Source: Isoetes taiwanensis (lineage: Eukaryota; Streptophyta; Lycopodiopsida; Isoetales; Isoetaceae). Taken from it: a stretch of 64,000 nt of DNA. The notes under the pieces are model-generated. The model ran no database searches. It had not been told where the DNA came from and saw nothing but the letters and a program-made list of their open reading frames with translations. The translations under genes and the position numbers were made by a program. Below are positions 10,579 to 62,877 of this stretch, one piece after another. Where the stretch lies: positions 18,894,089 through 18,958,088 of the forward strand of contig JAJEKV010000005.1 in the NCBI GenBank assembly GCA_021234155.1, written 5' to 3'. How positions within the stretch are numbered: position 1 is the first letter of the stretch; every line of letters begins with the position of its first letter.

Positions 10579-10592
10579 TGGTATCAGAGCAG
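10579..10592 (+). promoter_or_regulatory. Primer-binding site, tRNA-iMet type
   Basis: TGGTATCAGAGCAG immediately follows the LTR. It matches the plant initiator-Met tRNA 3' end complement used to prime reverse transcription in copia elements. Confidence 0.9.
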
Positions 10593-10708
10593 GAGCCCTG
10601 ATCCAGGGACCTGCAAAGAGAAGAATTCGAATTTTTTATAAGCCTTATGCTGAGAAGATGAAGAAAAGGACGAAAGATACGGCTGATGGGGTCCAGATAG
10701 AAGACTCA
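10593..10708 (+). other. Left internal remnant of the split element
   Basis: About 116 bases including a short open stretch (MKKRTKDTADGVQIED) that could be a vestigial gag start. It is cut at 10708 by the gypsy LTR. Confidence 0.5.
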
Positions 10709-12243: not shown

Positions 12244-12256
12244 TTCTCCCCACCTT
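12244..12256 (-). promoter_or_regulatory. Polypurine tract of gypsy element 1
   Basis: Reads AAGGTGGGGAGAA on the minus strand, directly before the 3' LTR start TGTGACG. This is the standard plus-strand primer position. A second copy lies at 25442-25454. Confidence 0.8.
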
Positions 12257-15843: not shown

Positions 15844-15844
15844 T

Positions 15845-17744: not shown

Positions 17745-18040
17745 GGGTCCAAATTCTTCATAAAGGCTCCTTGCCGAGGGTGGCCTGGGTTGCCGGGGGT
17801 GGCCTGGGCGGAGTCTGTTCTTCCATATGGTCTCGGCGTTGTCGTTCCCCTGAGCCTAGGCCTCTAGCTGCATACACAAGTAGGTCATGGCTATGAGGTT
17901 AGTTTTATTTATTCTCTTGCATTATATATGTTTGTTGGTATGGTTGTGGAACAAAATACATCAACAAAACATTTAAAGTGCAAAAGAAATTATATTTATA
18001 TTATATTATAATTACAACGCCCCCGGGATCAAGAGTCTAA
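17745..18040 (-). other. Spacer between ORF-B and gag, element 1
   Basis: Open text resembling a gag N-terminal extension (RSLYEEFGP before the ATG) and an AT-rich stretch (17895-18020) where a gag promoter or leader could lie. Nothing matching element 2's ORF-C is seen. Confidence 0.4.
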
Positions 18041-19041: not shown

Positions 19042-19493
19042 TGTTGAGTTTGGGGTTCTTGGCAACACCTTGCAGCAGCAGTCCATGACTGCCGGATGCC
19101 ACAGGGCTGCCACAAATGCTCATGGATCAATAAAAGAAGATGGGAAGAAACTCCAAGAACAAGAACAAAGCAAAGAATGAACAAAACAGAATCATGTTGA
19201 TGCTCCAAAAGGAGGTGCTCCAAAACGTGAGCAAAAACCTAAACAATGAGAGGAAATGCTCTCTCTAAATAGTAGAGAAAAACCCTAACCCTAACTGACA
19301 TCTCACCTTTCACATATCTAGGCTAAATCTGGGCCATAGATTGTGGGGTCCAATATGACAAATACATGTGGCCTATGCCACCTACCACATATGTGGGCTA
19401 AATCTGGGCCGTAGATCAAGTGGTCCAATGTGATAAATACATGTGGCCTATGCCACTCATACTCATACATATGTTTAGCCCAAAGGGCTAACA
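19042..19493 (-). repeat. 3' LTR of the LARD-like element
   Basis: 452 bp, TGTTGA...TAACA. Contains two tandem half-units around ggctaaatctgggcc (19321 and 19387) and an extra 6 bp (actcat) relative to the other LTR. Confidence 0.93.
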
Positions 19494-19505
19494 CTCCCCC
19501 CCACC
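19494..19505 (-). promoter_or_regulatory. Polypurine tract of the LARD-like element
   Basis: GGTGGGGGGGAG on the minus strand, directly before LTR start TGTTAGCCC. Confidence 0.85.
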
Positions 19506-19821
19506 ACACCAAACTATGTAGAACCTTTATAACAGCAGGTTAAACATTTACAACAGTGTCCAAAGTGAGGGGAAATAATGATAATGTCGCCGAAGTCTTG
19601 ATCCAAAAATGCCAATATCGATGAAGTACAAAAATCGTAAGAGGTTGAGAAGGCTGTCACCACTTCTCTTGAGCTTGCCACAAGCTCCTTTAATTTCGTA
19701 GAAGTCAAATCTAATGTGGAGAAGGCTGTCACCACTTCTCATAGAGCTTGCCACTAGCTCCAAATACATGCGCCAATCAAAGTGTCTTGTTGAACAAAAA
19801 AATGTGGAAACAAAAGTTGTT

Positions 19822-20625
19822 GAAGGGGCGGAAGGTTTTAAGTCATCTTCATGCCATTTTTGAACTGGAAAAGTTGAAACAAGGAGTTGAACTTGAAAGA
19901 TTTGAAACATAAGTGATTGAAGGGGCGGAAGGCCCTAAGTTATCTTCACGCCATTTGTTGAACTTGAAAGAGTTTGAGCAGATAGTTGAACTTGAAGGAG
20001 TTGAAAATTGAAGGGGCGGAAGGCTGTAAGTCATCTTCACGCCATTTGTTGAACTTGAAAGAGGCTCAACCGCCATGTATTATGGACGGTCAAGATGGAT
20101 TAAAAAGGTTGTCTCTCAAACGCCCTGCATTTGGGTTGATGAGGTAAGCTTGAATGTTGAGGAAAGATTGCTGAAAAAAGGCCTACACATGCCATAGGGC
20201 TGTGTGAGGTTTGTTGGTACAAGGTACAAAGAAGATCTCCAAGAATGCGGCAAAAGATGAGGCGTCCCCCAAAATGTGCCAAAAATATGTTCCAAAGACT
20301 TCCTGCATGAAAAGAGGATTGAAAGTTGTGCTCGAAGTCACGCCGTGAGGGGCCATGACAATTTTGATGAACTCACGCCATTGGGCCGTGATTTTGTTGC
20401 CGAAAGAGAAGGATGCTGCTGGACTTATGGATTGATGAAAATTTGTGCCTCCAAAGGCATAATGCCTCAAAAATTTGACAAGAGGTCAAGAAGTCACCAT
20501 TAAACAAAGCACGCCAAGTGGCCGTGATCGAGTTTGCATCCAAGAATGGCCTTAACATGCCGTTGGGCCATGTAAGGCGAAGGTATGAAAGGGGCGGAAG
20601 GTTGAATCATCTTCGCGCCATTTGC
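19822..20625. repeat. GGGGCGGAAGG repeat family in the LARD interior
   Basis: Four units at about 19825, 19918, 20012 and 20585 share gaaggggcggaagg, then aagtcatcttcacgccatt, then tgttgaacttgaaag. The first three are near-tandem with a period of about 94 bp. Confidence 0.8.
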
Positions 20626-20878
20626 TTATAAGCATGCCATGTATAGAACGTGATAGATGGTATAAAAAACCCTCTTCAATAGTAGAAGAAGTGAAAAATA
20701 CCAAGAATGGTGCCCATCTTGAATGGCCTAAGTGCCAAAGGTTGCCATAAAAGAATCGAGTCATTGAAGATATGTGTGTTGAACGACAAGTGCCCGCCTT
20801 GAAGGTGCAGACAATTAAAAATTTCATGCTCACTTTTTTTTTTTTTAATGGTTGGGTGGGCCGCACGCCGGAATTGGT

Positions 20879-21172
20879 GCCACGCCCGTGAGGGGCCGTG
20901 GGCGCTGAAAGTGCCGTGGCCGTGGGGTTCTGAGGGCGGAAGGCCACGCCGTGACGTGCCGTGGGAGCGTCCACGCCGTGATGGGCCGTGGGGGCTCTGA
21001 TGCTGAGGCCACGCCGTGAGGGGCCGTGGGAGAGGCCACGCCGTGAAGGGCCGTGGGAGCTCTGATAACGAAACAGAGTGCCGTGAGGTGCTGAGAGCAG
21101 AGAGGCCACGCCGTGACAAGCCATGGCGCCTAGAAGGTCGTTTGTTGGTCCACGCCGTGAGGGGCCGTGGAG
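20879..21172. repeat. CCACGCCGTGAGGGGCCGTGG repeats in the LARD interior
   Basis: Seven copies of an approximately 21-bp unit, ccacgccgtg then a 3-4 base variable part then gccgtgg, lie at 20879, 20943, 20971, 21009, 21037, 21108 and 21150. Stray relatives lie near 20340 and 21777. The unit is rich in CCGTG/CACGG and partly self-complementary. It is the most GC-rich part of the element. Confidence 0.85.
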
Positions 21173-23190
21173 GTATGCATAGTCGGTACTCTTGATTTCA
21201 ACGGATCTCTGGAGCTGAGAGTAAGATTGTCAAGAAAAAAGGATAGGGCATTTCATGGCCACGGAAAATACTTTGCGAGAGTGAGGGTGCATCGCTGCTG
21301 CTGCTAGACCTATGCCGCTCAAAGATGGCTTCAATATTTTGCTTGGCGATGTACAAATCCGAGCCTGTCTGTCTGAGACAGTGCGAATGTTGCAACAGAT
21401 GCTTCTTAGCAGGTAAATTGCTTGACGAAAATATTGAGACAGAGCTTCAGGTTGGAATAAGCGACCAAATGCAGCTGCTGATTGTGGTGACTGAAGTTCG
21501 AGACTGGAGATGGTTTATCATGATTTACCTGAGAAGAATTCCTCAAGAAGCAGAGAAATATGGCAGCCACATATCAAATTTTACAGAGACCCCTTTGCGT
21601 GGGCGATGTCGTCTGGCCATTAAGGCTCTTGCATATAGAGAGATATATTTTGCTGTGATTGGAAGGAATCCTGCCTTATGCTGGACTATTCCGTCAGGAT
21701 TTGGCTCAGGGTTGGAGTCACGAGCCGTGGATAATGGAGCTTAACCAAAAGAATTTTCTTTTTTGTGCAAGGTTCCACGCCGTGGAGTTGTCATGCTGGA
21801 TTTGGGGCTGAGTCCGTGACCTGTAGGCACCCGAGTTTGCTTTGAAGTTGAATGAAGCCATGCCCTGATGGTGAGCGTCAAAAATTTGTTATGGCTGAGC
21901 CTTAGCCTAAGCCGCCCAGACCATGAAGATGAAGGTCAGAGAAGCCAGGCCTTGATGGGCCTTGGCCGTCTTTTGATCAGAATGAATCTGCCGAAAGTAA
22001 AGAAGAGGGCAGTGCATGAAAATCCCAACTGAGGTACTCTCTTGCCAAATAATTGATGCTCTGTCCAAAAGTAATTGAGAATCCCCTGTTTTTCAAATGA
22101 TATGGCCCCAGAAGATTGAGATCTAGATGCAGAAGATTGAGATCTGGAGACTAAGAAATTTGTTTTGGTGCCGTTTTGCCAAGGGAAAACCATGCCAACT
22201 GCTGCAATTTAGACGTCTGAAAAGATTTTGGTTCTTTGACTGTGCATGTTCAAAATAGGGGCGGATCTCTTCACGCTAAAACAGATCAAAAATTCCTAAA
22301 GAGCCCCTTGGTTGAATGGGGTTTTGTTTGCTCTTCGAATGGTGCTGCTGGTTTGGTTTGCTGAAAAATCTCGTTGCGGGCTTCCCTAAGATGCAGTGTT
22401 GGAAAAAATCGCTTATGGAAGAGCCGTGGAGCCATTTTCTTTGTGGGTTGCTTGCCAAAGCAAGGCCAACCGCAGATCAATGCAAGACCAAGCTCCCTGC
22501 TCGGTGGTCGATTTTCAAAAGAAGCTTGTCTATCCCCGGCATCCCGAATCCTCGTTCAGATCGAAAGGGCATCTGCAGCACCCAAAATAGAAGATGCCGG
22601 AAGAATGTGAGCAAATATGGCTGCTTACAGAACAGAGTATGGATATGTTGCTGATGTAGCACAGGAGGAAAAAATTGCTATGAAGAACCCAAGTGTTTGC
22701 TGAAAAGAACTGCGCCAAAATTTGCCCCTGTTTGAAGTATTGGGCAAATGTCACAGAGTATGGTCATGAAAAACAGGCTGAAGACCCGAAGAACATCTCC
22801 AACACTGCAAACGAGAAGAACTTTTAACATTTGTGGCAAAAATACTAGGAAGAGAACCACAGTTTTTTTTTTTTTTTACTGTGAACATGAAACGAACTAT
22901 GGATATGAACCAAATAAGAACTGTATCATGCAAGAACCAACGTTGCCCCTTTTCGAGATAGTGACAGATATGATAGATAATAAGCAAGAAGAATGTGTCG
23001 ATGAAGAACCAGTTATTTTTGACGAATAAGAACTTTATGCTGCCAAAAACCAAATTTGACCCTTTCTGAAACAATGGGCAAATATCAGATATGTGAATCC
23101 GAGAAAGTGTCAATGTAGAACCAAATAAGATTTTCTGAACTTTTGGAGAAACTTAAACAAAAACAAGAGGATGATCATGAGCCCAAGAGA

Positions 23191-23208
23191 CCCCGGCATG
23201 AGGCGCCA
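23191..23208 (-). promoter_or_regulatory. Primer-binding site of the LARD-like element
   Basis: Minus strand reads TGGCGCCTCATGCCGGGG one base after the 5' LTR. A TGGCGCC start is common for primer sites of plant gypsy-type elements; the tRNA was not identified. Confidence 0.65.
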
Positions 23209-23209
23209 G

Positions 23210-23656
23210 TGTTGATATTTGGGGTTCTTGACATCACCTTGCAGCAACAGTCCATGACTGCCGGATGCCACAGGGCTGCCACAAATGCTCATGGATCAAC
23301 AAAAGAAGATGGGAAGAAACTCCAAGAACAAGAACAAAGCAAAGAATGAACAAAACAGAATCATGTTGATGCTCCAAAAGAAGGCGCTCCAAAACGTGAG
23401 CAAAAACCTAAACAATGAGAGGAAATGCTCTCTCTAAATAGTAGAGCAAAACTCTAACCCTAACTGACATCTCACCTTTCACATATCTAGGCTAAATCTG
23501 GGCCATAGATTGTGGGGTCCAATATGACAAATACATGTGGCCTATGCCACCTACCACATATGTGGGCTAAATCTGGGCCGTAGATCAAGTGGTCCAATGT
23601 GATAAATACATGTGGCCTATGCCACTCATACATATGTTTAGCCCAAAGGGCTAACA
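23210..23656 (-). repeat. 5' LTR of the LARD-like element
   Basis: 447 bp, about 98% identical by eye to 19042-19493. Confidence 0.93.
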
Positions 23657-24165
23657 TCGACGTAGTCCTCATCTTCTTCCTCTGATTCTTCGTGTTGCTC
23701 CTTCTCGTACTGTGAAAGGAGCTGTTCTGCCGCTGCTGTGGCTAATGGGTCCACGTCCATGGGGGGGATGGAGGTTTCTCCCATGGGGTTCTCGGCACGG
23801 CGGGTAAGAAAAATGGCTAAGGCAGCGTTGAAAGAAAAGCACTTGGTCCTGTTGACAGTCAGGACCATTGGCTCGGGCATGCGCTGGGCCTTGTTTGTGA
23901 GGTACTTGGCAATGTTTGGAACATCGCCTAAGGCTGCTTGAAGGGATTGCCTAGGAACAAAGTAGCCTATGCAAGGTGGGAGCTGCACTAAGGATGGCCC
24001 TACCCTAGCTTGGAATTCAGACAGGACTCTGCTATATGCTGGGGTTGCCTGCAAGGTTGCATGGACATCTATCTCTTTCCGGAAGATTCGGAAAACCTCA
24101 TTGACGTCAGCTTCGGCAGCATGAGCGCTGGCGCTGTACCATCGCCTGAAATCAGAGGTTGCCAT
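23657..24165 (-). CDS. ORF-B, N-terminal third (element 1)
   Basis: I chose the ATG at 24165 (MATSDFRRWYSASAHAAEAD) because element 2's copy starts at the matching place (MAAAADLAAWYLDGEK). The frame is open to the left LTR junction. Features: a helix-rich start, QATPAYSRVLSEFQARVGPS (element 2: MQRHPDYAGFLDFYMEEMLP), LPPCIGYFVPRQSLQAALG (element 2: IPLGDPPHLYLEREIVRQML) and a strongly acidic tail (EEESEEEDEDYV type). Function unknown. Lies about 720 bp downstream of the H3-like ORF with its own TATA box. Confidence 0.75.
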
Positions 24166-24278
24166 GAATCTAGCGAGGAAGAGACTAGCAAACAGATGCA
24201 AGAGCGCCACAGGGAGCTGGGAAATCGGCTAAGGGGGCAGGAGCAAACTCGTAGGGTGCTACGTAAGAAATGAGGGAC

Positions 24279-24288
24279 CTATTTATAG
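24279..24288 (-). promoter_or_regulatory. TATA box for ORF-B (element 1)
   Basis: Minus strand reads CTATAAATAG, a textbook plant TATA box, about 115 bp before the ORF-B start codon. It implies that ORF-B is expressed from an internal promoter rather than only from the LTR. Confidence 0.6.
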
Positions 24289-24888
24289 AAAAGGGGGAAA
24301 CCCTAATTTTTGGGTGACTTGGAAAATTCTTGGGGTTGGGCAATTCTAGCCTATATCGAGGTCTAAATGGGAATTGGAAGACTAATTTAAGGGTTTGAGC
24401 ATGACTGGATTACCTAAAGATCCTAATACAACAAGTTGGAGATCATTTGGACAAGTTATGGAGAAGAAATGGTAGGAGGTCTCACACGTAGCGCCTCGTT
24501 CAAAAGCTGGACTTTAGTTTCTTGACCAGGCGCGACGTGTGAGACATCAGTCCCATTTTGATCAAAACATGTCCAATTTGGGTAAACTAAGGGTGTAAGG
24601 ATGACAGACTCGTCAAATTAAGAAGAATCGACCCCTTACTTGGTCAATTTGGAGCTGTTTTGGGAAATTTTGGGCAAGGTCTCACACGTAGCGCCTCGTG
24701 CAAAAACTGGACTTTGGTTTCTTGACCAGGCGCGATGTTTGAGACATCACACTTTTTGGTCTGGGAATGTGCTATTTTAGTAAAACAAAAGCTACTACTT
24801 GCTAACTTGTCCTAATTAAGCAAGATTGGACACATAAACTACTCAAAATTGTTTTATATTACAAAATTTTTGATTATTTACAAAATGT
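24289..24888 (-). other. Intergenic region between H3-like ORF-A and ORF-B
   Basis: Holds the duplicated hairpin described in the next entry, AT-rich stretches and the putative ORF-B promoter. No ORF seen. Confidence 0.6.
24478..24752. repeat. Duplicated hairpin (GTCTCACACGT ... ACGTGTGAGAC)
   Basis: Two copies, about 24480-24546 and 24681-24746, about 200 bp apart. Each has a stem formed by gtctcacacgtagcgcct and aggcgcgacgtgtgagac (one mismatch in the first copy, one or two more in the second) around a 30-base loop (ctggactttagtttcttgac). The perfectly placed complementary arms suggest a structured RNA or protein-binding dyad at the 3' side of the H3-like gene. Confidence 0.8.
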
Positions 24889-25384
24889 TTATTTGGGATC
24901 TCCCTTAATTAAACTAGCTAATTGCATGTCCTTCCTCATGAGGGTTACTCGCTTTGCATGAACAGTGCAAGCTGTCGAGTCCTCAAAATGTTGCACTATC
25001 CTCTGCTCAGCTGCTTCCTGCAGTGCCAGCAGCATCTCATCTGTGACCCTCATGCCAGTGTTGAAGTCCTGCATGACTTCTCTAACTAGACGAGCAAATG
25101 GGGCACGGGGAATTAGGAGGCCGTAACTGCGCTGGAAGTGCCTAATCTCTCTTAGTGCTCTTCTCTCGGTCTCCTTCCTGCTGGGCTTCTTCTTGGCTGG
25201 CTTCTTCGGGACCTTGGGCTTTGGTGGTGGCGGCCTTAGTGTCTGGCTCTTCGTTGGATGTCTGCCCTCGATAGTCCGTACCCTGTTCTCCTGATAGTAC
25301 TTGTTGTACTCCTCCCACTTCACCATGAAGGCGTTGTGTTCCCTCATCTTTCTCTCGTAGATCTTGACAGGGTCCGTGATATAG
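24889..25384 (-). CDS. ORF-A with histone H3 fold, CENH3-like (element 1)
   Basis: From the ATG at 25347 it is 152 codons; the frame is open upstream to the junction at 25384 (SYITDPVKIYERK), so the original N-terminus is lost. Residues 1-35 are charged, 36-62 form a Pro/Lys-rich tail (PKPKVPKKPAKKKPSRKE). Residues 64-152 form a complete H3 histone fold: ALREIRHFQRSYGLLIP (alpha-N), APFARLVREVMQDF (alpha-1), ALQEAAEQRIVQHFEDS (alpha-2), VHAKRVTLMRKDMQLASLI (loop 2 and alpha-3). REIRHFQ, LLIP and VTLMRKD resemble plant CENH3 more than canonical H3, and the loop-1 region is unusual (NTGMRVTDEM). The canonical ARTKQTARK tail is absent. It could join a nucleosome with H4 or target the element to chromatin; that is inference. 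Confidence 0.88.
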
Positions 25385-25727
25385 GACTGTACAGTATACG
25401 TCCTGGGACCGTATGCTGTGCTGGAACGTCACATTCTCCCCACCTTGGAATGATGCTGTCCGCAGCATCGTGGGTCTCCCCACCTTGGAATCTTCCTAAC
25501 CGGCAATCAACCTGATGCATACAGTATAGTACTATGGTACTTACACATTTATTATGATTACCCTAAAGCAATATTTTTATAACATTATTACGCCCTTAAC
25601 TTATGAAATAACTTATCAATTCGTGACATCATTAAAACAGTTACTCGATAATTTCACTTATCACGACAATTTAGTTTATCAAAATTTTAACATTTAATGT
25701 ATATAATTATCATTCGAGGTACTCCCT
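25385..25727 (-). repeat. Duplicate of the element's 3' end fused to ORF-A
   Basis: Nearly identical (about three substitutions) to 12191-12533: the last 286 bp of internal DNA, the purine tract, and the first about 57 bp of the LTR (TGTGACGTTCC on the minus strand), then an abrupt switch into the H3-like frame. A 5' LTR should stand here. The structure implies a tandem LTR-sharing pair with a deletion, or template switching during reverse transcription. Confidence 0.88.
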
Positions 25728-26020
25728 AGATGAAGTTAGAGGACTCCCTAGACCATCGAAAGGTGAGCAGTTTACATGGCCACTTAGATGAGCTCAGGTT
25801 GAGCAGTAATGGGGAGTAGATTGACTGCTAAGGGAAGTCTAAAAATAGTCTATAAGTTTAAATTCCTTATGTTAAGAAAAACAGCAGTTGCCTCTAGTTC
25901 ATCTAGTGATGAGCAGTTGAGCTCATTTGGATGGCTCCAGTTGAGAGCAGTTTAAGGAGGAATATGTTGTTAGGGGATAAAAAGGGAATTTAGACTCACA
26001 CTTCCATTGATCTATTGATC
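25728..26020 (+). other. Right internal remnant of the split TRIM/copia element
   Basis: Non-coding, with several gagcagtt/gatgagcag repeats. It resumes after the gypsy block and leads into the purine tract. Confidence 0.7.
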
Positions 26021-26029
26021 AAGGGGGAG
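26021..26029 (+). promoter_or_regulatory. Polypurine tract of the split element
   Basis: AAGGGGGAG directly before the 3' LTR, preceded by the copia-typical ttgatcaag context. Confidence 0.85.
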
Positions 26030-26216
26030 TGTTGCAGATATGATCTAATAGATCAAGAAGTGCGTGTGGCAGGCTGACTAGACTGCCAAGTTGGCGATCC
26101 AAGCCAAGAGGCACGACTCATCTGAAGAGCCACAACTGCACCTATTTGTAAGCCATGGTTGGGGCTGTTCCAACCAGTCCATTCAATCTATTTTGTTCTT
26201 CCTCCATATTTTATCA
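26030..26216 (+). repeat. 3' LTR of the split TRIM/copia element
   Basis: 187 bp, about two differences from 10392-10578, followed by CTTTA (26217-26221), the TSD. Confidence 0.9.
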
Positions 26217-26221
26217 CTTTA

Positions 26222-26315
26222 TAGCATGACTTGAGTCCTCTCACAAAGTACCAAAGCAAGTGAAGGGTAGGCCATTCTGGCACTTGAGTAACATGTATGC
26301 ATGGAGTCTTTCTAC
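26222..26315 (-). pseudogene. Old gag-like sequence, middle piece
   Basis: 94 bp trapped between two insertions. Its minus-strand frame (CIHVTQVPEWPTLHLLWYF) continues into 10391-10200 on one side. On the other side it should continue from 27913 after removal of the solo LTR. Confidence 0.5.
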
Positions 26316-27907
26316 TGTGACGTCCCCTACTCATATACGGTGCACTCACCGTATACAACCAGGAGTTCATCCCCCATACCAGCTCCATACTGATACAGGG
26401 CCCTCCACGTATCACTGCAACCTTGATGAGTTCCAGTGGGAAGAATGAAGGGGTCATTTTACCCTGTCTCCCTCAGGGTCTACCTAGCTGCGGAAGCGTA
26501 AACATACATGTCAGTATACATCATCACATCACATAACCATTTCGAAGGATGGCTCGTCACATATCTGCATAGACAAAGATCAACACATCACATATGGGGA
26601 TCCTACCCAAGGCTCAGACTCAAGGGGAATGACTGACGGCTTGGGTCTCCAGAGTTCATTGCAGATAGAATTCATGACATTGGATTTGGCTGGCATAAGA
26701 GCATGGCTTAGGGTAGTCCACTCCATCCGCCCCTCCTGTGCACACTTTGCAGAGTAGGTTGACAAGTGTTGGGACCTGACTGTAGCCCGCCGGATGCATA
26801 GCCAAAGGGGCTATTCCTGGGTTGCATCTCCCCAGTTCCGATGTGGCAGGTAGGGATCACTCCCTCTAGAGATCTACATGCTGACTCAGGGTGACTAGAG
26901 GGCCACTGCCCTTATTCGACTTGAACCCAATGGAGAGTGATGCATCACTCCACGGGTGTCGAGCCCATGCCTTGCCCGCACGCAGTGGCAAGCCATTAGA
27001 CCCAGTCCACAGGGATCCCCGGTAGACTTTACACACCAGAGGGATCGTTCTCCTGAGTCAGGACATGAACCTCCTTATGAGCCAGTCTGGTCCCTTCATC
27101 CACAACCGGGTGGGGTTCTTGTACACAGGCCGAATTTACAGTGTGCTAAAGAGGCTAGCTAGGAGCATCAACTACCAGGCTTTAAGGTCTCTACCCCCCT
27201 TCCCAATACAATGAATTCACAGAGATACATCATCATACATATCACAGAAGAACTAAAGAACAAGATCTAATCTAAATCACAGAGTTAGGTTCTTTAGTTA
27301 GGGCTCACTATCTAGGGATCTAGATGGCTGCTATGGGCAATTTAATAGGCTAAACCTACTTATTCAATGACTGGGAGGCGGTTTAGGCTATTAAATTGAC
27401 AAAATACCTGATCCTTGGCTCGCTCCTCCTGCCCTGAACTTGACCATCCTGCTGAACTGCTAGAAGATGAAGCTAGAAGGGGAAACTAATGAGATAGATC
27501 GCTCAGACAGAGTCTGGGAAGTGGGTTTGGCTTCTGGAGCAAGTAAAACAGAGCCCTAAAATGCTATGGACGAAAATAGCAAGTTAGGGTTTCCTTTACC
27601 TAAATAGACAAGGGGTTATGGCTAGGGTTTCCAATTATCCCTTTAAGCATGTGGGATAATTGGGTATGGCCCACTTGCCTTTATTAACTAGGTGGCATAA
27701 AATGTCCACATGGGAAAATGTGTACCTAGATAAATGTGCACATGGGTAAATGTGCACATAAATAAATGCACACACCTTACAAGTTGCCCCCTAGGGCGCT
27801 ACCTGCTTGGCTACACGTCGGCGTACACGTCAGTCGGGGTGGCGTGTACACGTGACGAGGCAGTACAGTATACGTCCTGGGACCGTATACTGTGCTGGAG
27901 CGTCACA
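26316..27907 (-). mobile_element. Solo LTR of the H3-carrying gypsy family
   Basis: 1592 bp with TGTGACGT...CGTCACA ends, flanked by perfect 5-bp duplications TCTAC (26311-26315 and 27908-27912). Similar throughout to 10709-12243. It formed by recombination between the two LTRs of a former complete element, and shows the family was active here more than once. Confidence 0.92.
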
Positions 27908-27912
27908 TCTAC

Positions 27913-49718: not shown

Positions 49719-51340
49719 TGTGACGTTCCACGTATTTATACGGTCTACTATACGGGACACGTACAAATACAAGCACGTCACTCCCTAAAGGTACGCTACC
49801 ATGGGGGTATGGGAACTTAATTGCAACCTAGGGGGTTACCTTACAAAGGATTAAATTAGCTATGCTAATTTAACACATTAATAATAATAACCTATAACCT
49901 AGGAAATTAGGATAATTACCAATTGGGAAGGCGCCACCTGCCCCAATCGATTGGGCAGCATGGGGGTTGCCAAGTTTGGATGCCAACTTGACCCCTATCC
50001 CTGGGATTGACTCCTGAAGATCGACCAAGGAAGGCCGAGTCTGGCGCCATCAACCACCGCAAAGAACCACCATACCAGTCGCCCCTCGCGGAAGCCACAA
50101 CTGAATCTTCAACCGCCAGGAGATGGAGGCGCCCCATGGGAATGAGTCCAGCCAGAACTCAGGTAGGTGGCTATGTGAATTCTAGATAACGCGTGATTAT
50201 GTCCGTTTCTCTGTTCTCTTTGTAATTCAATCATAGAAACTAACCCTTGTTTGTACAAGCAAGTACTCTTTATATTCAATTATGGTTTCTACTCTGAAAG
50301 GATGGATTGTTAGCTCTTTGTTTAGTCTGACTCAAACGGGGGATTAAGGGGGTAGAGACCCTGAACCGTGTATTGTAGTATGCTCCTAGATAGCCTGCAC
50401 CAGAGTCCCATTATTGCGGCAAGGCCGGCACAAGAACCCACCGGGTCCTAGATGCTATGGTCCGGCTTAGCACCGCATAAGGAACACAAGTGGTGACATG
50501 AGGGGTGGGGTCTTGCATGAGCATACAAGGCCCCCGAGACTCCTACAAATGGGCTAGGCCCGATAGCCGGTCACGTAGAGGGCCGGGTATGGGTCTGACA
50601 CTCCCTGGGTGGGAAGGTGTGATCCGTATGGAGCACCTTGCACTTTGAGTAGATTTAGGGTGAGTAAGTTGGGTACGGATGCGGGGGTCGCTGATGCGCA
50701 CGTATTCTCTAGCTCACCCATGGAACCACCGCGGTTTCGGAAGGGGACGCTTCCCCGACCTGCCTCATCGGACCAGGCGCCATGAACCCGGAGTAGGCTC
50801 GTGAGGGTGATGCCCCGAGTTTGCGCTCTGGAAGGGAAGGCTATAGCAAAGCCATAGCATGAATTGACCCATCCGCAAAGTGTGCATGTGGGAGGGGCGG
50901 ATGGAGTGGACAACCCTAGCCAATGTTCTATGCCAGCCAACGCCATGCCAAGACTCGGTCTCGCCGATCTCTTGAGGCCCAAATCCCACCGATCCCCACC
51001 GAGAGTCCGGAGAGCGGGGTAGAACCCGGGTTTGGGTGTTTTCTTAGGATTAGATGCATATTCTATGCCGTTGGTATTTTGGATGGATGTGCCACCCTTC
51101 GTGGTGGTTATTTATGTATATTCGTGCTGTGTGCTAACCCTTGTATTCATGCTTCCGCGACGTAGGAGTCCCATTGAAGGCGTGGGCGAATGACCCCTTT
51201 CAGGTCCTTCTTAGGGCCTCATTTCATAGATGGCCCGAAATAGACGGAGGGCCCCCGCTCATGGTGAGATGATCGCCATGGAGGGGAAAGTCCTCGATGT
51301 ATACGCCCGGAGGGTCGATATATATTCGGGAGCTGCCACA
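49719..51340 (+). repeat. 5' LTR of gypsy element 2
   Basis: About 1622 bp, TGTGACGTTCC...GCTGCCACA. The last bases differ from the 3' LTR end (GGCGTCACA). Long stretches are identical to the 3' LTR, interrupted by clustered small indels. Confidence 0.93.
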
Positions 51341-51343
51341 AAG

Positions 51344-51355
51344 TGGTATCAGAGC
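51344..51355 (+). promoter_or_regulatory. Primer-binding site of gypsy element 2
   Basis: TGGTATCAGAGC three bases after the 5' LTR. Initiator-Met tRNA type. Confidence 0.92.
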
Positions 51356-52079
51356 CGTGATTTGGTTGTTCAAATCATAGCACTCGCCAAACACTAACTC
51401 GTAGCACGGTAGTTAGGAGGAGGCTAAGTCAATGCGTCGTTAGTTCTCTTTGTTGTTTGGCTTGGTGTTAGGTTAAGTTAAGAAATTGTAGCCTTGAAGT
51501 GGAGGGGCCAAGATTGGAGGCCTAGCAGGTGCGGTGGGTAGCTCAAATGACAAAGATGATGGCTCCATTGGATTGCGCTTTCGAATTACCCTAAAACAGT
51601 CAACTCTAGGCGAAAAATGGTCAAGGGCAGGCCCAAAATGAACTTCGAGCCGCTTTGCTTTTTGTCACTTTGTCAATCAAGATCGGCGCCGAAATGTCGC
51701 CGCTACCGAACGACCGTCGGACTTCGAAGTCAACGCTGACCCTTGGTCAACTTCGCGCCGCTTGCATTTCGGCGACACCGGTCGGCAGAAACCCGTATAA
51801 TGCCATCGGCGCCGAGCCAGATGTGGCGCGTATTTCCGCCGTGATATAATTTTTTAATAATAAAATTTTGAAGTTAATAAGAAATTTTTGAAATTTTAAA
51901 GTTAATTGGTAGTTTAGCAAACCATTTCTGTCATTTGCTTTTGCTTAGCGCCTCCAACCGCTGAGCCGCCCCTCGCCATCGCGGCCGGACCGGACCTTGC
52001 TCCTGGCGCCTTGTGTGCCTTGTGCATCTTAAGCCCCCCTTTGCCATCCTCTTATTTGCCGGTAGCCTCACTATTCCCT
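51356..52079 (+). other. Untranslated leader of gypsy element 2
   Basis: About 720 bases without a supported ORF, with an AT-rich patch (51845-51905) that could serve as a promoter region for ORF-A. Confidence 0.5.
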
Positions 52080-52592
52080 ATGGCCATCACCAAGAGCGCT
52101 CCAGATCCAACCACCATGAGCATCGTGGAGATCTACGCCATGATTGCTAAGCACATGGCTACTGACCCAGCCCTCATCGACATCTTGTTGGATGAGCTGG
52201 TCAATAGGTTTGAGAACAACAATAGGATTCCATATCCTGTCTATCACTTCTCAGAGCCATTCCTCATCCGGCTGAACCTACGCCAGCTCCCATATACCCT
52301 TGTTGAGCAACCTGATATGGTAATGATGCTCATCAAATTTTATCCTCCCGAACAGGAAGGCCATACGGAGGAGGAAGATGTCAGGACGGAGGCCGACCGT
52401 ATTAGGGGTTTTGCCAGGGAGGACGACCACCGGGAGATTGAGCGGGCTGACACCGCAGCCCGGGGTAGGGAGTACCGGTACCTCGGGGACGGCTTTGCCG
52501 TCATCGATGGCAGAGCCATTGAGGTTCCCCCATACCACTGGCATGAGGGTTCCAACAGCTTTGTATGGGGAGAAATCCCGACATCGGCATAG
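52080..52592 (+). CDS. ORF-A, N-terminal domain (element 2)
   Basis: From ATG 52080 ([20 protein letters not shown]) about 170 codons to a stop at 52590-52592. It is helix-rich ([40 protein letters not shown]), then acidic ([30 protein letters not shown]), then [18 protein letters not shown]. No known domain. The next frame, which ends in the H3 fold, overlaps its end by 28 bases, so ORF-A was probably one protein of about 400 residues now split by frameshifts. Confidence 0.65.
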
Positions 52593-53305
52593 ACTATCGA
52601 CAACTATTCCGGATAGATATGGGTCTTCGGCCACAAAGGTACCCGCCTGAACTTAATCGCCGTGCGCAGCCCAACTTTTGCTCAGATCCAAGAAGACCTA
52701 AGGAGAGCTCCGGAAGAGCGCGAAGTTGGAGCAAGAGGAGCGGGACCGACAAGATCAGCGGGACCAATGTGGGAGGAGGTGCATCTGGGAGTGGCTCGAA
52801 CCCAAAACCGACGCATCCGACCGTTAAGCTCCGGAGGAAGGGAGTTGCCCATAAGGCCGGCAGTCAATACAAGGATAAGTTAAAGACTGTCGGGGCTTTT
52901 GGGAAGAAGACCAGCTCCGACCGGAGGCAGCAGAGAGTGGATAACTCCCGGCCGGTTGCTGGGGCCAAGACGGTGCCAACATCGTCGGGGCCTGGGCCAC
53001 AGCGGAAGCCTCATCGGTTCCGACCTGGTACCGTGGCATTGCGGGAGATCCGCAAATTTCAGAAGTCCACGGACCTTCTGATCAGGAAGCTACCTTTTCA
53101 GAGGCTGGTACGGGAGATCGCACAGCAATTTAAGACCGATCTCCGTTTCCAGACCTTTGCAATTTTGGCGCTCCAAGAGGCTGCTGAAGCCTACTTGGTA
53201 GCACTTTTTGGTGATGCCAACCTTTGCGCTATCCACGCAAAGAGGGTCACCATAATGCCTAAGGATTTAGCCCTCGCCCGTAGGATACGGGGGGAGCAAC
53301 CTTAG
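52565..53305 (+). CDS. ORF-A, histone H3 fold domain (element 2)
   Basis: 246 codons. Residues 40-150 are a basic, low-complexity tail ([39 protein letters not shown]). Residues 151-246 are a complete H3 core: [96 protein letters not shown], and then a stop. It matches canonical H3 through alpha-N, alpha-1, loop 1, alpha-2 (with a Cys as in many H3s), loop 2 and alpha-3. The usual N-terminal tail with K4/K9/K27 is replaced by a different basic tail. It stands between the LTRs of one insertion, so it is carried by the element. Confidence 0.95.
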
Positions 53306-53506: not shown

Positions 53507-54912
53507 ATGGCTGCCGCCGCCGACCTTGCTGCCTGGTACCTTGATGGAGAGAAATGGGATCCACAGGTTCCCTTCGACCTGCTGCAGCCTTTGCTATGCC
53601 AACGCGTAGATCTCCTTGCCAATATGCAGCGGCATCCGGACTACGCCGGATTCCTTGACTTTTACATGGAGGAAATGCTTCCTCTGTGTATTCCTCTGGG
53701 GGATCCTCCCCACTTGTATTTGGAGCGGGAGATAGTTCGGCAGATGCTAGGCGGGGACACACATGCTTATGACGTCTTGAAGGGGAAACTCCGATGGGGT
53801 AAACACCTACCAGTGGTCCAAAGATCGGGGCAGAGATGTCGGAAGCTACTTTCGCTCTAGCCATCCTCATGGACCAATACGTTGAGGATGAAACCTTGCC
53901 GGCAGAGAAGGGCAAGCTGTCAGAATCCTCCGAGGAGGGGGGTGACGAGCATATAGGGATGGGCGACTTTGCCCGTTAGAAAGAGCTAGCAGAGGAGCTA
54001 CCACCGCGCCGTGACCAATCGATAGGCTTGTCAGGGTTAGACGGCCTTCCAGTTATTTATCACCGGGGCGGGGAATACCTTCTCTTGGATGATATTATCC
54101 GGGCGTATCACGTGGTGGCGGATTTAGGCGCCAAGCGCAAAGACCATGTACTTTTACGAGCTTGCGGAGTATTGTATGGATGATTTCATCGACTTCACTT
54201 CTACCGAAGCTTCCGAGGAGGTGCCCAGCTCCTTCGGTTCCGTCGAGGAGACTCTAGAGCCGGCGGAGACTCTATTACGTCTTAGTGACCGTGATGCGAG
54301 GGGAACCAGCCGCGAACCGCACCAGATGCCTTCCGCGGCTATGGGACCTCACGCCCCAAACATTAATATGGTGGAAGTTCCCTCAGGACTCGGATGATGA
54401 GGGTGAAGATTTATACCATAACCCCTGCGCACAAGAAGGAGGAGCAAGGGGAGCTCAAGGAGGAAGAAGTCCCCATGGACTGGATAAAGAAGTGGCAAAG
54501 ATTCGAGACTTCGCAAGGGAAAGTGCTGGGTAACCATCTTACCCGTTTCTTTTTGTCGGCCTTCAAATACGGGCAAGTCCTCTTCATAGCCCGGGATTTA
54601 GGGCCAGAGGCTGAAGCTTCATGGTGGGCCCTCCGTGCACTTTCTACACTGGCCGGCCACAAGAAGCTTCCCTATCGTACGTTTACGTATGTACTCGTAC
54701 GACGGGATCTTGCCCTTACGGCCTTGGGCCAGGATATTGCGCCTTGGATGGGCATGAAGCTCCTCACGGCAGCCCCATTGGCCGTTGCCTATCCACCGGA
54801 GGTTGCATCTGTTGCGGCGGCCACAGTGGACCCTGGGGTAGCTCTGCTGCGACACCGACCGCCTCCACCACCTCCTAGGGCTAAGGATAAAGAGGCAGGG
54901 CCTAGTTCCTGA
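53507..54912 (+). pseudogene. ORF-B (element 2), unknown protein, frameshifted
   Basis: Starts MAAAADLAAWYLDGEKWDPQ. The first frame runs to 53860. The reading then continues in other frames through an acidic stretch (SESSEEGGDEHIGMGDF), VIYHRGGEYLLLDDII, and a C-terminal frame 54394-54912 with WIKKWQRFETSQGKVLGNHL, TRFFLSAFKYGQVLFIARDL, LPYRTFTYVLVRRDLALTAL and a Pro-rich tail (RPPPPPPRAKDKEAGPSS). It aligns block by block with the element 1 protein. There are at least two frameshifts and one stop (near 53978). About 470 residues if intact. Confidence 0.8.
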
Positions 54913-55837: not shown

Positions 55838-56970
55838 ATGCTCCCTATAGACGGTGTACGTAACGCCGCTTGGCAAACACCCTCCAACGCCAGTAGGCTC
55901 ACCCCTGAACAGGAATTGATGTTAATGAAAAGGCAACTCGGTGAGTTACAGGCTTATGTGTTGCATACCAATCCATCGCCACATACTCGGGAGGGACGGA
56001 CCCGGAATTACCTCCCGACCATTGAGTCCACCGCACAACAGACCATCTCCTCCCGAGCTAGCCACGCACTGCACAAAGGAGGACTCATGCTAAGCGTCAT
56101 CGAAGTTCCTCTAAGGATAGCGCCGCTTCCTCACATTCAACCACTTCGGCTTCTTCCGGATCCTCGCTATCAGACAATGACCATTCAAGGCGTAAGGATA
56201 AGGAGTACCGGAAAACCGTTGATACAGCCATCACTAGTATATGGAAAAACCGGAAGTTGGCTCAGTTTGATGGGAAATCCAGAGGAGGCTTGAATGCGGA
56301 ATCTTGGTTGGACGAAATGAAGGAATTGGGGGAAGTCCTATGGAATGACAGAGAAAGATACAGGGAAGGTCGCCACCACGAACCTTACCGGAGTCGCCGT
56401 ATTTGGTGGAAGGGTTACGCTGAGCTAAGCACACGGACGGGGAGCGGATGCAAGTTCAAGAAGTTCGCTAAGGCTTTTAAATCGCATTACGTGCCTCAAT
56501 GCGCACAAATGCCAACAGATTCAGACCTTCTAGGTTGGAGTTGAAGGGCATGTCGGTGCAGGCCTACACCGGCGAATTCATGCGTTTGAGGTTGTATGTA
56601 CCAGGAATGAATGAGAAAAAGGCGTAGAGGGCTACATTGAAGGGTTGGCCCCATCCATTAAACGTATGGTCAAGGCCATAGACCCAAAATCGATGCTTGG
56701 CGGAAGCTAAGGCATTAAGCCTTGAGGAAGACACGCCAAAGAACCAAGATCTGCGACCTGCTCCTTACTTTCAGACCACGGGCCGCCCACACCTTACAAA
56801 CCCCCGATTTCGCCAAGTCGGGGCCCTCTCAAAGACAATTCTTATGGCCGCCCGAGGGGAGAAGAAAGTAAGCCTTTAGCACGCCCGGATAAGCGAGAAC
56901 AATGCGGGTAAGGAAGTTCGGGGCCTCTTACGGTCCATTCCTAAAGAGGCGGAGAACAGCTCCGGCCGGG
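55838..56970 (+). pseudogene. Gypsy element 2 gag
   Basis: LTPEQELMLMKRQLGELQAY, then LAQFDGKSRGGLNAESWLDE, MKELGE, IWWKGYAELS, FKKFAKAFKSHYVPQ, and LKGMSVQAYTGEFMRLRLYV, in several frames. Same blocks as element 1 gag. At least three frameshifts. Confidence 0.88.
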
Positions 56971-57800
56971 ATAAGGCATGCTACGGTGCATGAGGGCTGG
57001 ACACTTCATGCGTAATTGTCCGTGCGTCCACGCTAGACGCTTCGGTGGCCATGGCCGACGCTGGATTGGGAAGATTTGGAGTCCAATCTTCTTTGCGGAG
57101 GACGAGGCTCCGAAAGTACATTCATGGTGCGTCTCATATTCTTGCCGCTATAGAAACGAGCTTGCGCTGAAAGTCACCTTCGTTATATCTACAATAGGCC
57201 AAGTAGGCGGTAAGCCCTTCATAATTTTGATGGACCACGGGTAGTACGCATAATTTTGCTTCTCCTAGAATGGCCAGTCTGCTGCGGTGGAAGCGTTGAG
57301 ATCGACCTAAGCCCGGTCACATTAGCTAGCGGTAAGATCGGACACACTAATGGCGCCGTATTAACCTTAAGATGCGGTTGCGGGTGCACCGGTTGCCTTG
57401 GGTGCCGAGTTAATGGACATTGGCAAATATGATCTTATTGTGGGAATGGAGTTTTTAAGCGTCTGCGCGGGGGCCCACATAGGCTGCGAAAAGAGGAGGT
57501 CACCTTCAACGCCGCTAATGGAGCACGTGTGGCGATAAAAGGTGATTCATTACACTCCGCCATGCAATCAATGTCGATAAAGCAGCTAGGAAAAGCTATG
57601 CGAGGAATGAACTCCTTTGCCTCATTAAACTTGCTTCCATTGAGTCGGACTCCAAGCGGCGACAAGTAATCGGCTTTACCATCGGACATTGCTACCCTTC
57701 TTGAGAATTTAGCGATCTCTTTCCGGATGAGATCCACAAGCTTCCTCCTTTCGAGGAGGGGTGGAATGTGAGATAACTCTTGAACCGGTACTAAGCCTAC
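56971..57800 (+). pseudogene. Element 2 zinc knuckle and protease region
   Basis: Knuckle remnant CMRAGHFMRNCPC near 56985 (the first Cys pair is damaged). Protease PFIILMD followed, after a shift, by GSTHNFASPRMAS-type text (57215-57280), then YDLIVGMEFLS near 57430. Heavily frameshifted. Confidence 0.8.
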
Positions 57801-58400
57801 CGGCAAAGCCCCGTCATAGAATGAGTCCTCCGGAGTTAGCGAGCTTAAAAAGCGACTACAAGAGTTCTTGAATTTGGGGTTTATTAGGCCCGGTGTTTCA
57901 CCATTTGGCTCCTATTCTTTTTGTCAAGAAGAAAGATGGCTCCTTAAGGATGTGTATTGGTTATAGGCAACTCAATAAGCATACCATCAAGAATCGCTAT
58001 GCTTTGCCTAGGGCGGATGATCTTATGGACCCGGTTGCAAGGAGCAAAATATTTCTCAAAGATTGATTTGCTCCGGGTACCATCGAGATAAGGATTAAGG
58101 AAGAGGACATCCATAAGTCGCTTTTCGTACCAGATATGGGCATTATGAATTCTTGTCATGCCTTTTGGATTGACCAATGCCCTACCAGCGTTTATGCGGT
58201 TGATGAATGACATCTTCCGCCAATACTTGGATGACTTTGTTGTCATTTTCTTTGATGACATTCTCATCTATAGTAAAACCTTGCAGACAACATGAACAAC
58301 ATCTTGATTAGCTTTGCAAAAGCTAAGGCGCCATCGACTTTTGCCAAGTTCTCTAAATGCAAGTTCGCCACTCCAAGGGTAGACTATTTGGGGCATATTA
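57801..58400 (+). pseudogene. Element 2 reverse transcriptase
   Basis: RT motifs in shifting frames: [93 protein letters not shown]. Frequent 1-2 base indels (57895, 58035, 58070, 58160, 58285), many next to CG. Confidence 0.88.
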
Positions 58401-59760
58401 TTTCACTTGAAGGAATTGCTACTGAGACCAGCTAAGATAGAAGCAGTAAAGGATTGGCCCATTCCAGCTAATGTTTCAGAGGTCCGGAGTTTCTTGGGAC
58501 TCGCAGGATATTATCGGAAATTTGTTAAGGATTTTGCAACAATTGCCGCACCTCTTACTAATCTCACAAGGCATGAGAAAGTAAAGGATTGGATGGAACA
58601 TTGGAAAACAAAAGTCCAAGTCGGCTTCCAGAAGCTCAAGGATGCCTTAACATCTGCACCAGTCCTTACCTTGCCTGATCACGAAAAGGATAAAAGTAGC
58701 CACCCCAAGCGCTAGTAAAATAGCTACTGGTGGAGTTCTAATGCAGGAGGGGAGAGTTGTTGCTTACGATTCAAAGAAGATGAATGATGCAGAGCAGCGA
58801 TATCCTACCCATGATCAGGAGTTACTGGCAGTTGTACGTGCTCTCCGTATTTGGAGACACTACCTTCTTGGTAGAAGATTTCAGCTGGATACGGATCATC
58901 AAAGTCTTCGCTACCTATCCACCCAGCCAAATCTGAATCTCCGTCAGCGAAGATGGATGGAATTCCTCGAGGAATATGACTTCGAGATTGTATATAAACC
59001 AGGGAAGCACAATGTGGTTGCGGATGCTTTGTCACGTCATCCCTTCATAACCCGGACCCATTGTAATGCCATTTCCACACTCACCAGCGAGTTTGGGAAG
59101 CAAATAGAACAAACCTTGGCCACAGATCCCGAATTCTGTAATATTTGGGAAAGTTTGGGTAAGGAAGCCCGTACCGATAGAGAACGTGAAGCATTCCGTT
59201 CATATAAGAAGGAGGGCAATTTATTATATTACAAAGATAAGTTGTGTGTTCCAGCGACTTCAGGGGTGCGAAAGCTGATTCTCCATGATACACACAACAG
59301 CCCTATAGCAGGACATGCGGGTTTTATGAAAACTTATTTTAAGATCCGCTCCAGCTATTTTTGGCCTTCCATGAAGAAGGATATTGCTAGGTACATCAAA
59401 CAGTGTCAGGTTTGTCAACAAACCAAGGCTGAGCAATTAAGAGTTCCCGGGGAGTTGCAACCTTTGGATGTGCCCAACGCCAAGTGGGAAGTCATAACCA
59501 TGGATTTCATTGTGGGGCTTCCACGTACTCTCCGTGGGTATGATGCCTTAATGGTCGTGGTCGACAAACTATCAAAGATGGCTCACTTCCTGCCATGTCG
59601 CACCACGGACACCGCCTTCGACACCGCCTTGCTCTTTGCAAAGGAAATTTTCAGGTTGCACGGGATGCCGAGAGTAATTGTATCGGATAGGGATCCTAAG
59701 TTTGTCGGTGCGCATTGCGGAAGGATTTCTTCGCCACCATCCGGACCAAGCTTGCCATGA
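58401..59760 (+). pseudogene. Element 2 RT tail, RNase H and integrase core
   Basis: 58407-58715: [30 protein letters not shown]; 58741-59760 (339 codons): VVAYDSKKMNDAEQRYPTHD, FQLDTDHQSLRYL, VVADALSRHP, HHCC (HDTHNSPIAGH ... CQVCQQTK), WEVITMDFIVGLP, VIVSDRDPKF. The integrase Glu region (STTYHPRPDGQS) is shifted at 59710-59800. One shift between the two frames destroys the RNase H TDAS motif (58690-58740). Confidence 0.92.
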
Positions 59761-60737
59761 GTACGACCTACCATCCTCGACCGGATGGTCAAAGCGTAGG
59801 CGTGTCAATCGTATTATCGAAGATATGCTAAGAAGCTATGTATGGAGTAAAAGTCACAATGGGCGGATTATATTTACTTGGTGGAATTAGCCTACAGCGA
59901 TTACAAAGCGAGGAGTCTTCTAGAATGTCTCCTTTCATGATAAATTATGGCTATCAATGTCTTACTCCGGACACATGGCATAATCCTGTTTCTAAAGTGG
60001 AGTCTCTCAACAACTCCTTTTAGAAATGCGAGGCCTTGGTGGAAGAAGTTGGGGGTTACTTATTGGGCGCACCCGGTCGTCGGAAAAGAGTCTAGCGGAT
60101 AAGCACCGAACCCCACAGAATCTTCAGTGGGTGAGTCGGTTTGGCTTAAGATCAAAGTAAAACAAGCCAAGCTTAAAATTGGTAAGCTGTAAGAAGTTGG
60201 CACCCGGATGGGCTGGGCCGTTCATGATTCTTGAGCGCGTGGGAGAACGGGGCATATCGCTTGAACTTGCCACCCCGCTTGAAGATCCACAAGGTCTTTC
60301 ACGTGAGTCTTCTGAAGCAACACACCCCTGATCCAGAGGAGGTTTTGGATACCCCTACCCTCCTAGAAATGAGTGAAGAGCAGCTGGAAATAGTGCCCGA
60401 AGCTCTTCTTGATCGAGCTTACAAACAGACCAGAAGGACTCAAATGTTGCAATACTTGGTCAAGTGGAAGCACTTACCAGTTGAAGATGCTACCTGGGTG
60501 ATGAAGATAGACCTTGAGAAGCACTATCCGGACTTCATGCGGGAATCTCAAGGCCGCACCATCAACGATGCTATCAACCCCGCTCCCGGCGGTAAGCTTG
60601 AAGGCTTGATTGACCGAGAATCATGTTTTAGAGGGGTAGACGCATCGTATATGATAGTAATAACCGATGATGAGATCACCTTCGTGTTCTCTAGGACGTG
60701 GTGTATTGTTGATGTTGACATGACCGCGAATTGCTAG
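59761..60737 (+). pseudogene. Element 2 integrase end and chromodomain
   Basis: SRMSPFMINYGYQCLTPDTW, HNPVSKVE, then GPY/F-like text, HKVFHVSLLKQHTPDPEEVL (60231 on) and the chromodomain (MLQYLVKWKHLPVEDATWVM, DLEKHYPDFM). About 60 residues beyond the chromodomain extend to 60737 (ITDDEITFVFSRTWC). Frameshifts near 59990, 60090 and 60200. Confidence 0.9.
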
Positions 60738-61262: not shown

Positions 61263-62877
61263 TGTGACGTTCCACGTATTTATACGGTCTACTATACGGG
61301 ACACGTACAAATACAAGCACGTCACTCCCTAAAGGTACGCTACCATGGGGGTATGGGAACTTAATTGCAACCTAGGGGGTTACCTTACAAAGGATTAAAT
61401 TAGCTATGCTAATTTAACACATTAATAATAATAACCTATAACCTAGGAAATTAGGATAATTACCAATTGGGAAGGCGCCACCTGCCCCAATCGATTGGGC
61501 AGCATGGGGGTTGCCAAGTTTGGATGCCAACTTGACCCCTATCCCTGGGATTGACTCCTGAAGATCGACCAAGGAAGGCCAGGAGCTGAGTGCCATCAAC
61601 CGCCTGCAGAGAACCACCATACCCGGTCGCCCTGTGGAAGCCACATTTGAATCTTCAACCGCCGAGGAGATGGAGGCGCCCATGGGAATGAGTCCAGCCG
61701 AACTCGGGTAGGTGGCTATGTGAATTCTAGATAACGCGTGATTATGTCCGTTTTCTGTTGTTCTCTTTGTAATTCAATCATAGAAACTAACCCTTGTTTG
61801 TACAAGCAAGTACTCTTTATATTCAATTATGGTTTCTACTACGAAAGGATGGATTGTTAGCTCTTTGTTTAGTCGACTCTGCGAAGCGGGGGATTAAGGG
61901 GGTAGAGACCTCTCTGAAGGTGTATTGTAGTATGCTCCTAGATAGCGCCCTGTAGAGTCCCATTAATTGCGGCCTGTGCACAAGAACCCACCGGGTCCTA
62001 GATGCTATGGTCTGGCTTAGCACCAGACAAGGAACACAGTGGTGACATGAGGGGTGGGGTCTTGCATGAGCATACAAGGCTCCTGAGACTCCTACAGTGG
62101 GCTAGGCGATGGATAGGTCACGAGGGCGGGTATGGGTCTGACACTCCCTGGGTGGGAAGGTGTGATCCGTATGGAGCACCTTGCACTTTGAGTAGATTTA
62201 GGGTGAGTAAGTTGGGTACGGATGCGGGGGTCGCTGATGCGGCACGTATTCTCTAGCTCACCCATGGAACCACTGTGATTACGGAAGGGACGGCTTCCAG
62301 GCACGCCTCCTCATCGGACCGAAGCGCCATGAAACACGGGGTAGGCTGGAGGGTGATGCCCTGAGTTTGCGTCTCCGGAAGGCTATAGCAAAGCCATAGC
62401 ATGAATTGACCCATCTGCAAAGTGTGCACAGGAGGGGCGGATGGAGTGGACAACCCTAGCCAATGTTCTATGCCAGCCAACGCCATGCCAAGACTCGGTC
62501 TGCTGATCTCTTGAGGCCCAGCCGTCAGTCGATCCCCACGGGAGTCTGAGCCGGGGTAGAACCTGGGGTTTGGGTGTTTTCTTAGGATTAGATGCATATT
62601 CTATGCCGTTGGTATTTTGGATGGATGCGCCACCCTTCGTGGTGGTTATTTATGTATATTCGTGCAGTGTGCTAACCCTTGTATTCATGCTTCCGCGACG
62701 TAGGAGTCCCATTGAAGGCGTGGGCCGAATGACCCCTTCGTGTCCTTCTTCGGGCCTCATTTCATAGATGGCCCGAAATAGACGGAGGGCCCTGCTCATG
62801 GTGAGATGATCGCCATGGGAGGGGAAAGTCCCCGTATGTATACGTCCGAGGGTCATTATATATTACGGGGCGTCACA
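61263..62877 (+). repeat. 3' LTR of gypsy element 2
   Basis: About 1615 bp, TGTGACGTTCC...GGGGCGTCACA, followed by TSD ATCTC. Confidence 0.95.

Follow-up and report, generated by a model that had tools for sequence, protein, structure and literature searches.

The closest described counterparts of the elements reported here are hAT DNA transposons of fungi. According to two reports (PMC3538342, PMC6710886), these carry a histone H3-like gene in Pyrenophora tritici-repentis (H3L) and in Pseudocercospora fijiensis and its kin, and ESTs of H3L exist in the former species (PMC3538342). There, as here, a mobile element bears an H3-derived open reading frame and amplifies it. However, the fungal elements are described as DNA transposons with terminal inverted repeats, represented by about ten long and nearly identical copies in the reference of P. 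tritici-repentis and by RIP-inactivated copies in P. fijiensis, whereas those of Isoetes taiwanensis are LTR retrotransposons whose H3 core is joined to a domain of the element, is under purifying selection, is borne by two lineages and is represented by about a thousand sequence matches in the genome. Direct LTRs and retroelement domains, in place of a hAT transposase and terminal inverted repeats, rule out a hAT identity for the Isoetes elements.

Selfish genomes that encode their own histones are also described among giant viruses (Marseillevirus/Melbournevirus and Medusavirus). These are described as DNA viruses, Medusavirus having all four core histones, whereas the Isoetes elements show H3 alone, so that host H4, H2A and H2B would be needed. 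In the remainder of their structure, the Isoetes elements resemble plant chromoviruses of the CHD_II type (Tekay/Galadriel/Reina), with gag, protease, RT, RNase H and an integrase with a C-terminal chromodomain apparently devoid of Y24 and Y48, together with LTRs and a 5-bp target site duplication (TSD; ATCTC for element A of the window, CAATC for its relative L019). They differ by an H3 gene upstream of gag, an arrangement reported for no chromovirus among the papers listed in the literature searches. In agreement with the earlier note on this DNA, whose author knew of no H3 gene in any Ty3/gypsy family, none of the papers listed by full-text searches (judged by titles and abstract starts, with preprints and most subscription papers outside their reach) reports an LTR retrotransposon with a histone gene.

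Core histones count among the most constrained eukaryotic proteins, and it is mainly on them that transposon silencing acts. A retrotransposon with a preserved H3 of its own raises the directly testable question of whether selfish DNA can alter the nucleosomes that package it. It also means that the number of histones counted in such a genome should not be taken for the number of histones of the host.

The H3-bearing element of the window and its relatives

The window, i.e. the whole stretch of 64,000 nucleotides that was analysed, contains on its plus strand a Ty3/gypsy chromovirus of 13.2 kb (element A). Repeat comparison places its 5' LTR at 49719..51340 and its 3' LTR at 61263..62877; both start with TGTGACG, end with GTCACA or similar, and are about 91.5% identical. 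ATCTC flanks them on either side (49714-49718 for the 5' copy and 62878-62882 for the 3' copy), and the matching LTRs and target duplication announced by the earlier note are thus both located. Just 3' of the 5' LTR lies the primer-binding site TGGTATCAGAGCC (51344..51356, plus strand), which we take to be of the initiator-Met tRNA type. The differences between the two LTRs are clustered, 4 of 17 blocks of 100 columns being identical (the first three included) and the others ranging from 82 to 98%, and they comprise 60 gap events for 55 mismatches. Since such clustered, gap-rich differences make a local assembly error possible, the broken frames of element A and any dating from its LTRs need care. 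The assembly (1658.30 Mb) was made with Nanopore reads, as stated in its description (PMC8566536), and errors of this technology may be behind some of the broken frames.

The H3-bearing frame of element A (52565..53305, plus strand, 246 aa) matches the Pfam Histone profile PF00125 over residues 126-242 with E=4.3e-42 (143.7 bits for a cut-off of 26.4), and its closest PDB chains are H3.3/H3.1 (E ~1e-52). The core itself (ALREIR...RRIRGE, 53036..53296, plus strand) covers 87 residues and is 87% identical to host H3, which confirms the presence of a full H3 core inside a Ty3/gypsy element, as previously proposed. The frame delimited at that time is indeed open and ends in the core, but parts of its first ~70 residues are out of frame when compared with five relatives, chosen blind to H3, that are open at that stretch. 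It is with this core that a longer frame ends, of which the N-terminal half forms in the window copy a separate ORF (52011-52592) containing an N-terminal domain (N-domain, 52080..52592, plus strand); intact relatives have this domain and the H3 core in one continuous frame. Three of these (L011, L015 and L019) display single frames of 434, 459 and 453 aa, respectively, in the order N-domain, Q-rich or charged linker, basic stretch and H3 core. The replacement of the canonical tail by another basic tail, also put forward by the earlier note, has therefore to be amended: the canonical tail is absent and a basic stretch precedes the core, but in relatives the region consists of the fused domain and a charged linker followed by the basic stretch. 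In line with this, no ARTKQTARKS-like match within three substitutions is present in the window or in 20 related loci (type A, see below).

The N-domain appears as an orphan in the searches performed. The best 120 of 8,000 proteins scored against the window ORF do not extend over more than 52% of the query, which corresponds to the H3 part, and for residues 1-260 of L015 none of 780 candidates reached E 0.001. In viral contigs, 11 stretches matched the search pattern and none was confirmed. A structure prediction for the N-domain alone (pLDDT 47) was set aside. Downstream of the H3 core and before gag, element A contains a further conserved protein (ORF2, 53507..54912, plus strand) that is broken in the window copy; its first piece matches 18 of the 20 type-A loci, its longest frames in relatives reach ~460-480 aa, and it yields no significant Pfam match. 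It is followed on the same strand by a frame-broken gag-pol region (55838..60737), in which profile matches identify RNase H/integrase (58741-59760) and a chromodomain (within 60231-60737), the gag-protease part being frame-broken.

The presence of H3 in other copies was examined in the assembly of I. taiwanensis (1,658,258,908 bases), i.e. in one genome with copies sampled by similarity. The earlier note had envisaged a one-off capture or a misassembly if other copies of the family were devoid of the H3 frame. In a sample chosen blind to H3 through a search with the window N-domain (3,371 first-look candidates, 150 scored, downstream stretch fetched for rows 2-13), an H3 core match is found downstream in all 12 copies, six whole and in frame and six broken, and the six whole cores share all 87 residues with that of the window copy. 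N-domain frames of exactly 463 aa occur in 7 of the first 21 rows. For ten further N-domain hits (contigs C1-C902) compared by eye, an exact match to an 11-residue motif is present 0.65-0.69 kb downstream in seven and absent downstream of those on C72, C101 and C789. A one-off capture or a misassembly is ruled out, because other insertions with their own LTRs, including one with its own TSD (L019, CAATC), bear the H3 gene.

The assembly was also searched with the Pfam Histone profile (8,705 first-look candidates, best 150 scored). Fifteen scored matches reach at least 164 bits, and the eight of them that were fetched are all canonical H3 genes with MARTKQTARK tails. The remaining 135 matches range from 144.5 to 154.7 bits, many of them in frames of 400-490 aa, and the 20 that were read (ranks 16-35 of the score list) constitute the type-A loci, in which the presence of the core follows from the way they were chosen. 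A near full-length homologue of the element A LTR is found upstream of H3 in 18 of these 20 loci, gag or protease matches downstream in 18 and TGGTATCAGAGC in 13, while L013 and L024 display no LTR, no gag or protease and no TGGTATCAGAGC within the 9.9 kb fetched. The relative L019 has profile matches for gag, protease, RT, RNase H, integrase and chromodomain; L019 and L020 retain H3 with no match to ORF2. For L015 and L009, a clean 3' LTR with a duplication was not found in the stretch fetched.

In the copies compared, the type-A H3 core is under strong purifying selection. Over the 21 pairs formed by the six whole H3-blind copies and the window copy, no core codon is changed and 0-14 codons differ silently, and dN in the linker and tail ranges from 0.008 to 0.121 among the five copies with an open frame there. 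Compared with three host H3 genes, the window core shows 47-52 silent and 11 changed codons out of 87. For L011, L015 and L019, the core has dN/dS values of 0.10-0.12, against 0.13-0.25 for the N-domain and 0.12-0.46 for the linker and tail. The median dN/dS among type-A pairs is 0.04 (189 pairs, dS undefined in 36), a value biased low since the set was chosen by H3 score. The retention of the core suggests that the element uses the histone for its own ends; selection could also serve another use of the histone fold.

A second H3 type and the question of origin

The earlier note correctly recognized the H3 gene of element A but overlooked that the window contains another H3-like ORF (24889..25347, minus strand, 152 aa; Pfam E=4.7e-29, 101.6 bits for a cut-off of 26.4). 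It belongs to a second chromovirus on the minus strand (element B, 10392..27908, boundaries approximate), which is delimited by LTR-like repeats that are 84% identical (26030-27908 and 10392-12244) and for which no TSD or primer-binding site was seen. Its H3-like core is 55% identical to that of element A over 87 residues. A piece of the ORF2 counterpart (23638..24210, minus strand) matches 11 of the 20 type-A loci, and profile matches for gag (17016-17744), protease, RNase H, integrase and chromodomain (13083-13889) extend over 13083..17744 on the minus strand, RT being outside the scan. Over 4.6 kb of gag-pol, elements A and B share 64% DNA identity.

The H3 gene recurs across both element families, that of element B being a large one too. 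For type B, 21 of the best 150 gag hits are preceded on the same strand by one of the best 150 H3 hits, and 16 of the 23 gag/H3 pairs are spaced by 2.98-3.32 kb, against one pair of wrong order or orientation; as both lists consist of the best 150 hits, these numbers show linkage but do not measure what proportion of elements have H3. The median dN/dS of type B is 0.07 (28 pairs), again biased low by the choice of the set on H3 score. The front of the H3 gene was not seen in the window copy of element B. Among ten type-B loci, an exact ARTKQTARK follows the ATG in five, a match within three substitutions is found in seven and no match in three; the tip is followed by A or P and then by a long linker. 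In L031, one single frame encodes MARTKQTARK, ~350 mostly charged residues and the H3 core, and L055, one further MARTKQTARK site drawn from the genome-wide pattern matches, corresponds by eye to a broken type-B gene. The predicted structure of the B-type ORF (pLDDT 69) hits H3 chains with a TM-score by query length of 0.34-0.37 and an rmsd of 6.6-19 Å among the best 50 rows, and seems to contribute little beyond the sequence.

Genome-wide, exact DNA-pattern matches amount to 1,034 for the 11-residue motif mentioned above and 1,051 for MARTKQTARK, host H3 genes being included in both counts, and to 127 for the type-B core motif HAKRVTLMRKD; the reversed control gave 0 in each case, and most of the matched places were not read individually. 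MARTKQTARK is thus far more frequent than HAKRVTLMRKD: either this core motif has been conserved less well than the tail tip or other families carry the start of the H3 tail.

Regarding origin, a tree of 49 cores over 92 columns, built with host CENH3 not included and with a bootstrap that had not settled, groups the A-type cores in one clade (100/98) beside host H3. The B-type cores also form one clade (100/100); it sits on a long branch, in the part of the tree (96/90) where plant CENH3 and two fungal CENP-A-like proteins are found, CENH3 itself not being one clade in this tree. The AU test rejects a single clade of A and B (p=0.017, to be taken with caution owing to long branches) and does not reject the grouping of B with fern CENH3 alone (p=0.101). 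A single ancestral capture is disfavoured by this test, a verdict tempered by the long B branch and the common layout of the elements, and we consider two captures likely, though unproven. Type-B cores have RHFQ, LLIP and VTLMRKD-like motifs in common with CENH3/CENP-A but have neither the loop 1 longer by one residue nor the C-terminal PW/LW of the six plant CENH3 read; by eye, loop 1 has the canonical length in both types. Type A differs from CENH3 in being canonical-H3-like, and the tree together with the loop 1 length rules out a CENH3 identity for the element A gene.

Possible roles of an element-encoded histone

Two related chromovirus lineages have, ahead of gag, a gene for a long protein ending in an H3 core. 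In type A, an orphan N-domain of ~190 aa and a charged linker occupy the place of the H3 tail, while in type B the ARTKQTARK tip is kept at the N-terminus with ~350 charged residues ahead of the core. We infer that this protein associates with host H4 and is incorporated into nucleosomes, in element chromatin, host chromatin or both, where it brings its N-terminal cargo. An element-encoded, selected H3 that enters chromatin is probably the correct reading, a level of confidence that does not extend to the exact benefit. Signs of decay weigh against it, namely the six broken cores among the 12 H3-blind copies and the three of ten further N-domain hits devoid of the exact motif, as do L013 and L024 with neither LTR nor gag. 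The element-specific nucleosomes, cDNA protection and steering of integration put forward by the earlier note likewise stand as hypotheses. Using sets of nucleosome contact positions, the H3 residue is the commonest one in type A (n=20) at 10 of 10 H3-H3', 14 of 15 H3-H4 and 16 of 18 DNA-facing positions, and in type B (n=8) at 8 of 10, 9 of 15 and 11 of 18 positions, respectively. Contact residues being kept in A and less so in B, nucleosome entry appears plausible for type A and weaker for type B.

Besides chromatin entry, the product could act as a decoy that competes for H3 chaperones, importins or methyltransferases, the ARTKQTARK tip of type B being a substrate mimic. Such a role would fit the exact tip of five of the ten type-B loci, the 1,051 exact MARTKQTARK matches (host genes included) and the retained H3-H4 and H3-H3' surfaces of type A, which overlap chaperone sites. 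Nevertheless, the DNA-facing residues that type A also retains (16 of 18) would be needless for a pure decoy, and we regard this role as unlikely. Alternatively, the histone might, together with host H4, condense the RNA or cDNA of the element in the particle or pre-integration complex instead of working in chromatin, in keeping with the position of H3 upstream of gag and with the basic stretch that precedes its core. This packaging role is quite improbable, given that gag has its own zinc-knuckle-like match (though below Pfam's cut-off) and that type A retains H3-H3' and DNA-facing nucleosome residues. Finally, a captured host H3 gene that hitch-hikes with no use to the element, as might be evoked from the six broken cores among the 12 H3-blind copies and from the fungal hAT copies of P. 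fijiensis, all reported to be RIP-inactivated except the original (PMC6710886), is very improbable, being largely refuted by the codon counts (within type A and against host H3) and also opposed by the low, if biased, type-A median dN/dS and by the retention of H3 in L019 and L020 with no ORF2 match.

If the element-encoded H3 does enter chromatin, its likeliest benefit, which we propose tentatively, would be to place new element copies in a chromatin that is not normally markable, since an ARTKQTARK-like tail is absent in A and displaced in B, thereby blunting silencing and anchoring element proteins. It is more speculative, and rather doubtful at this stage, that chromoviruses took up the H3 family twice (canonical H3 and CENH3-like H3) and put a self-made histone system with host H4 on their new copies, the modifiable tail being replaced or displaced, in order to write their own chromatin state and escape marking. 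If so, histone content itself would be a front in the conflict between host and transposon.

The chromodomain of the elements looks like those of group II (CHD_II), which are devoid of Y24 and usually of Y48 according to their description (PMC3350952). Compared by eye with an HP1 sequence, it appears to be without two of the aromatic residues required for H3K9me reading. A loop in which the integrase reads its own histone is consequently unsupported, and H3K9me reading should not be assumed.

Rearranged and tandem copies

The window copy of element B is rearranged, its segment 25389-25724 repeating 12199-12534 at 99%. Near the 5' end, the element thus contains a copy of its own 3' internal end and LTR start, and L035, located 46 kb away, appears by eye to share this junction. 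Direct repeats of ~455 bp (96% identical, 19035-19493 and 23203-23656) flank a segment that splits the ORF2 region of element B and is likely a nested insertion. At L027 and L041, a copy with H3 is accompanied ~12 kb further on by an LTR that is 97.6% alike and shares its flank and its GACCG duplication; the latter may be a solo-LTR form of this site in tandem arrangement. Finally, three type-B H3 matches are arranged in tandem, ~1.68 kb apart, upstream of one gag at G000:C1032:11104019-11107834 (minus strand).
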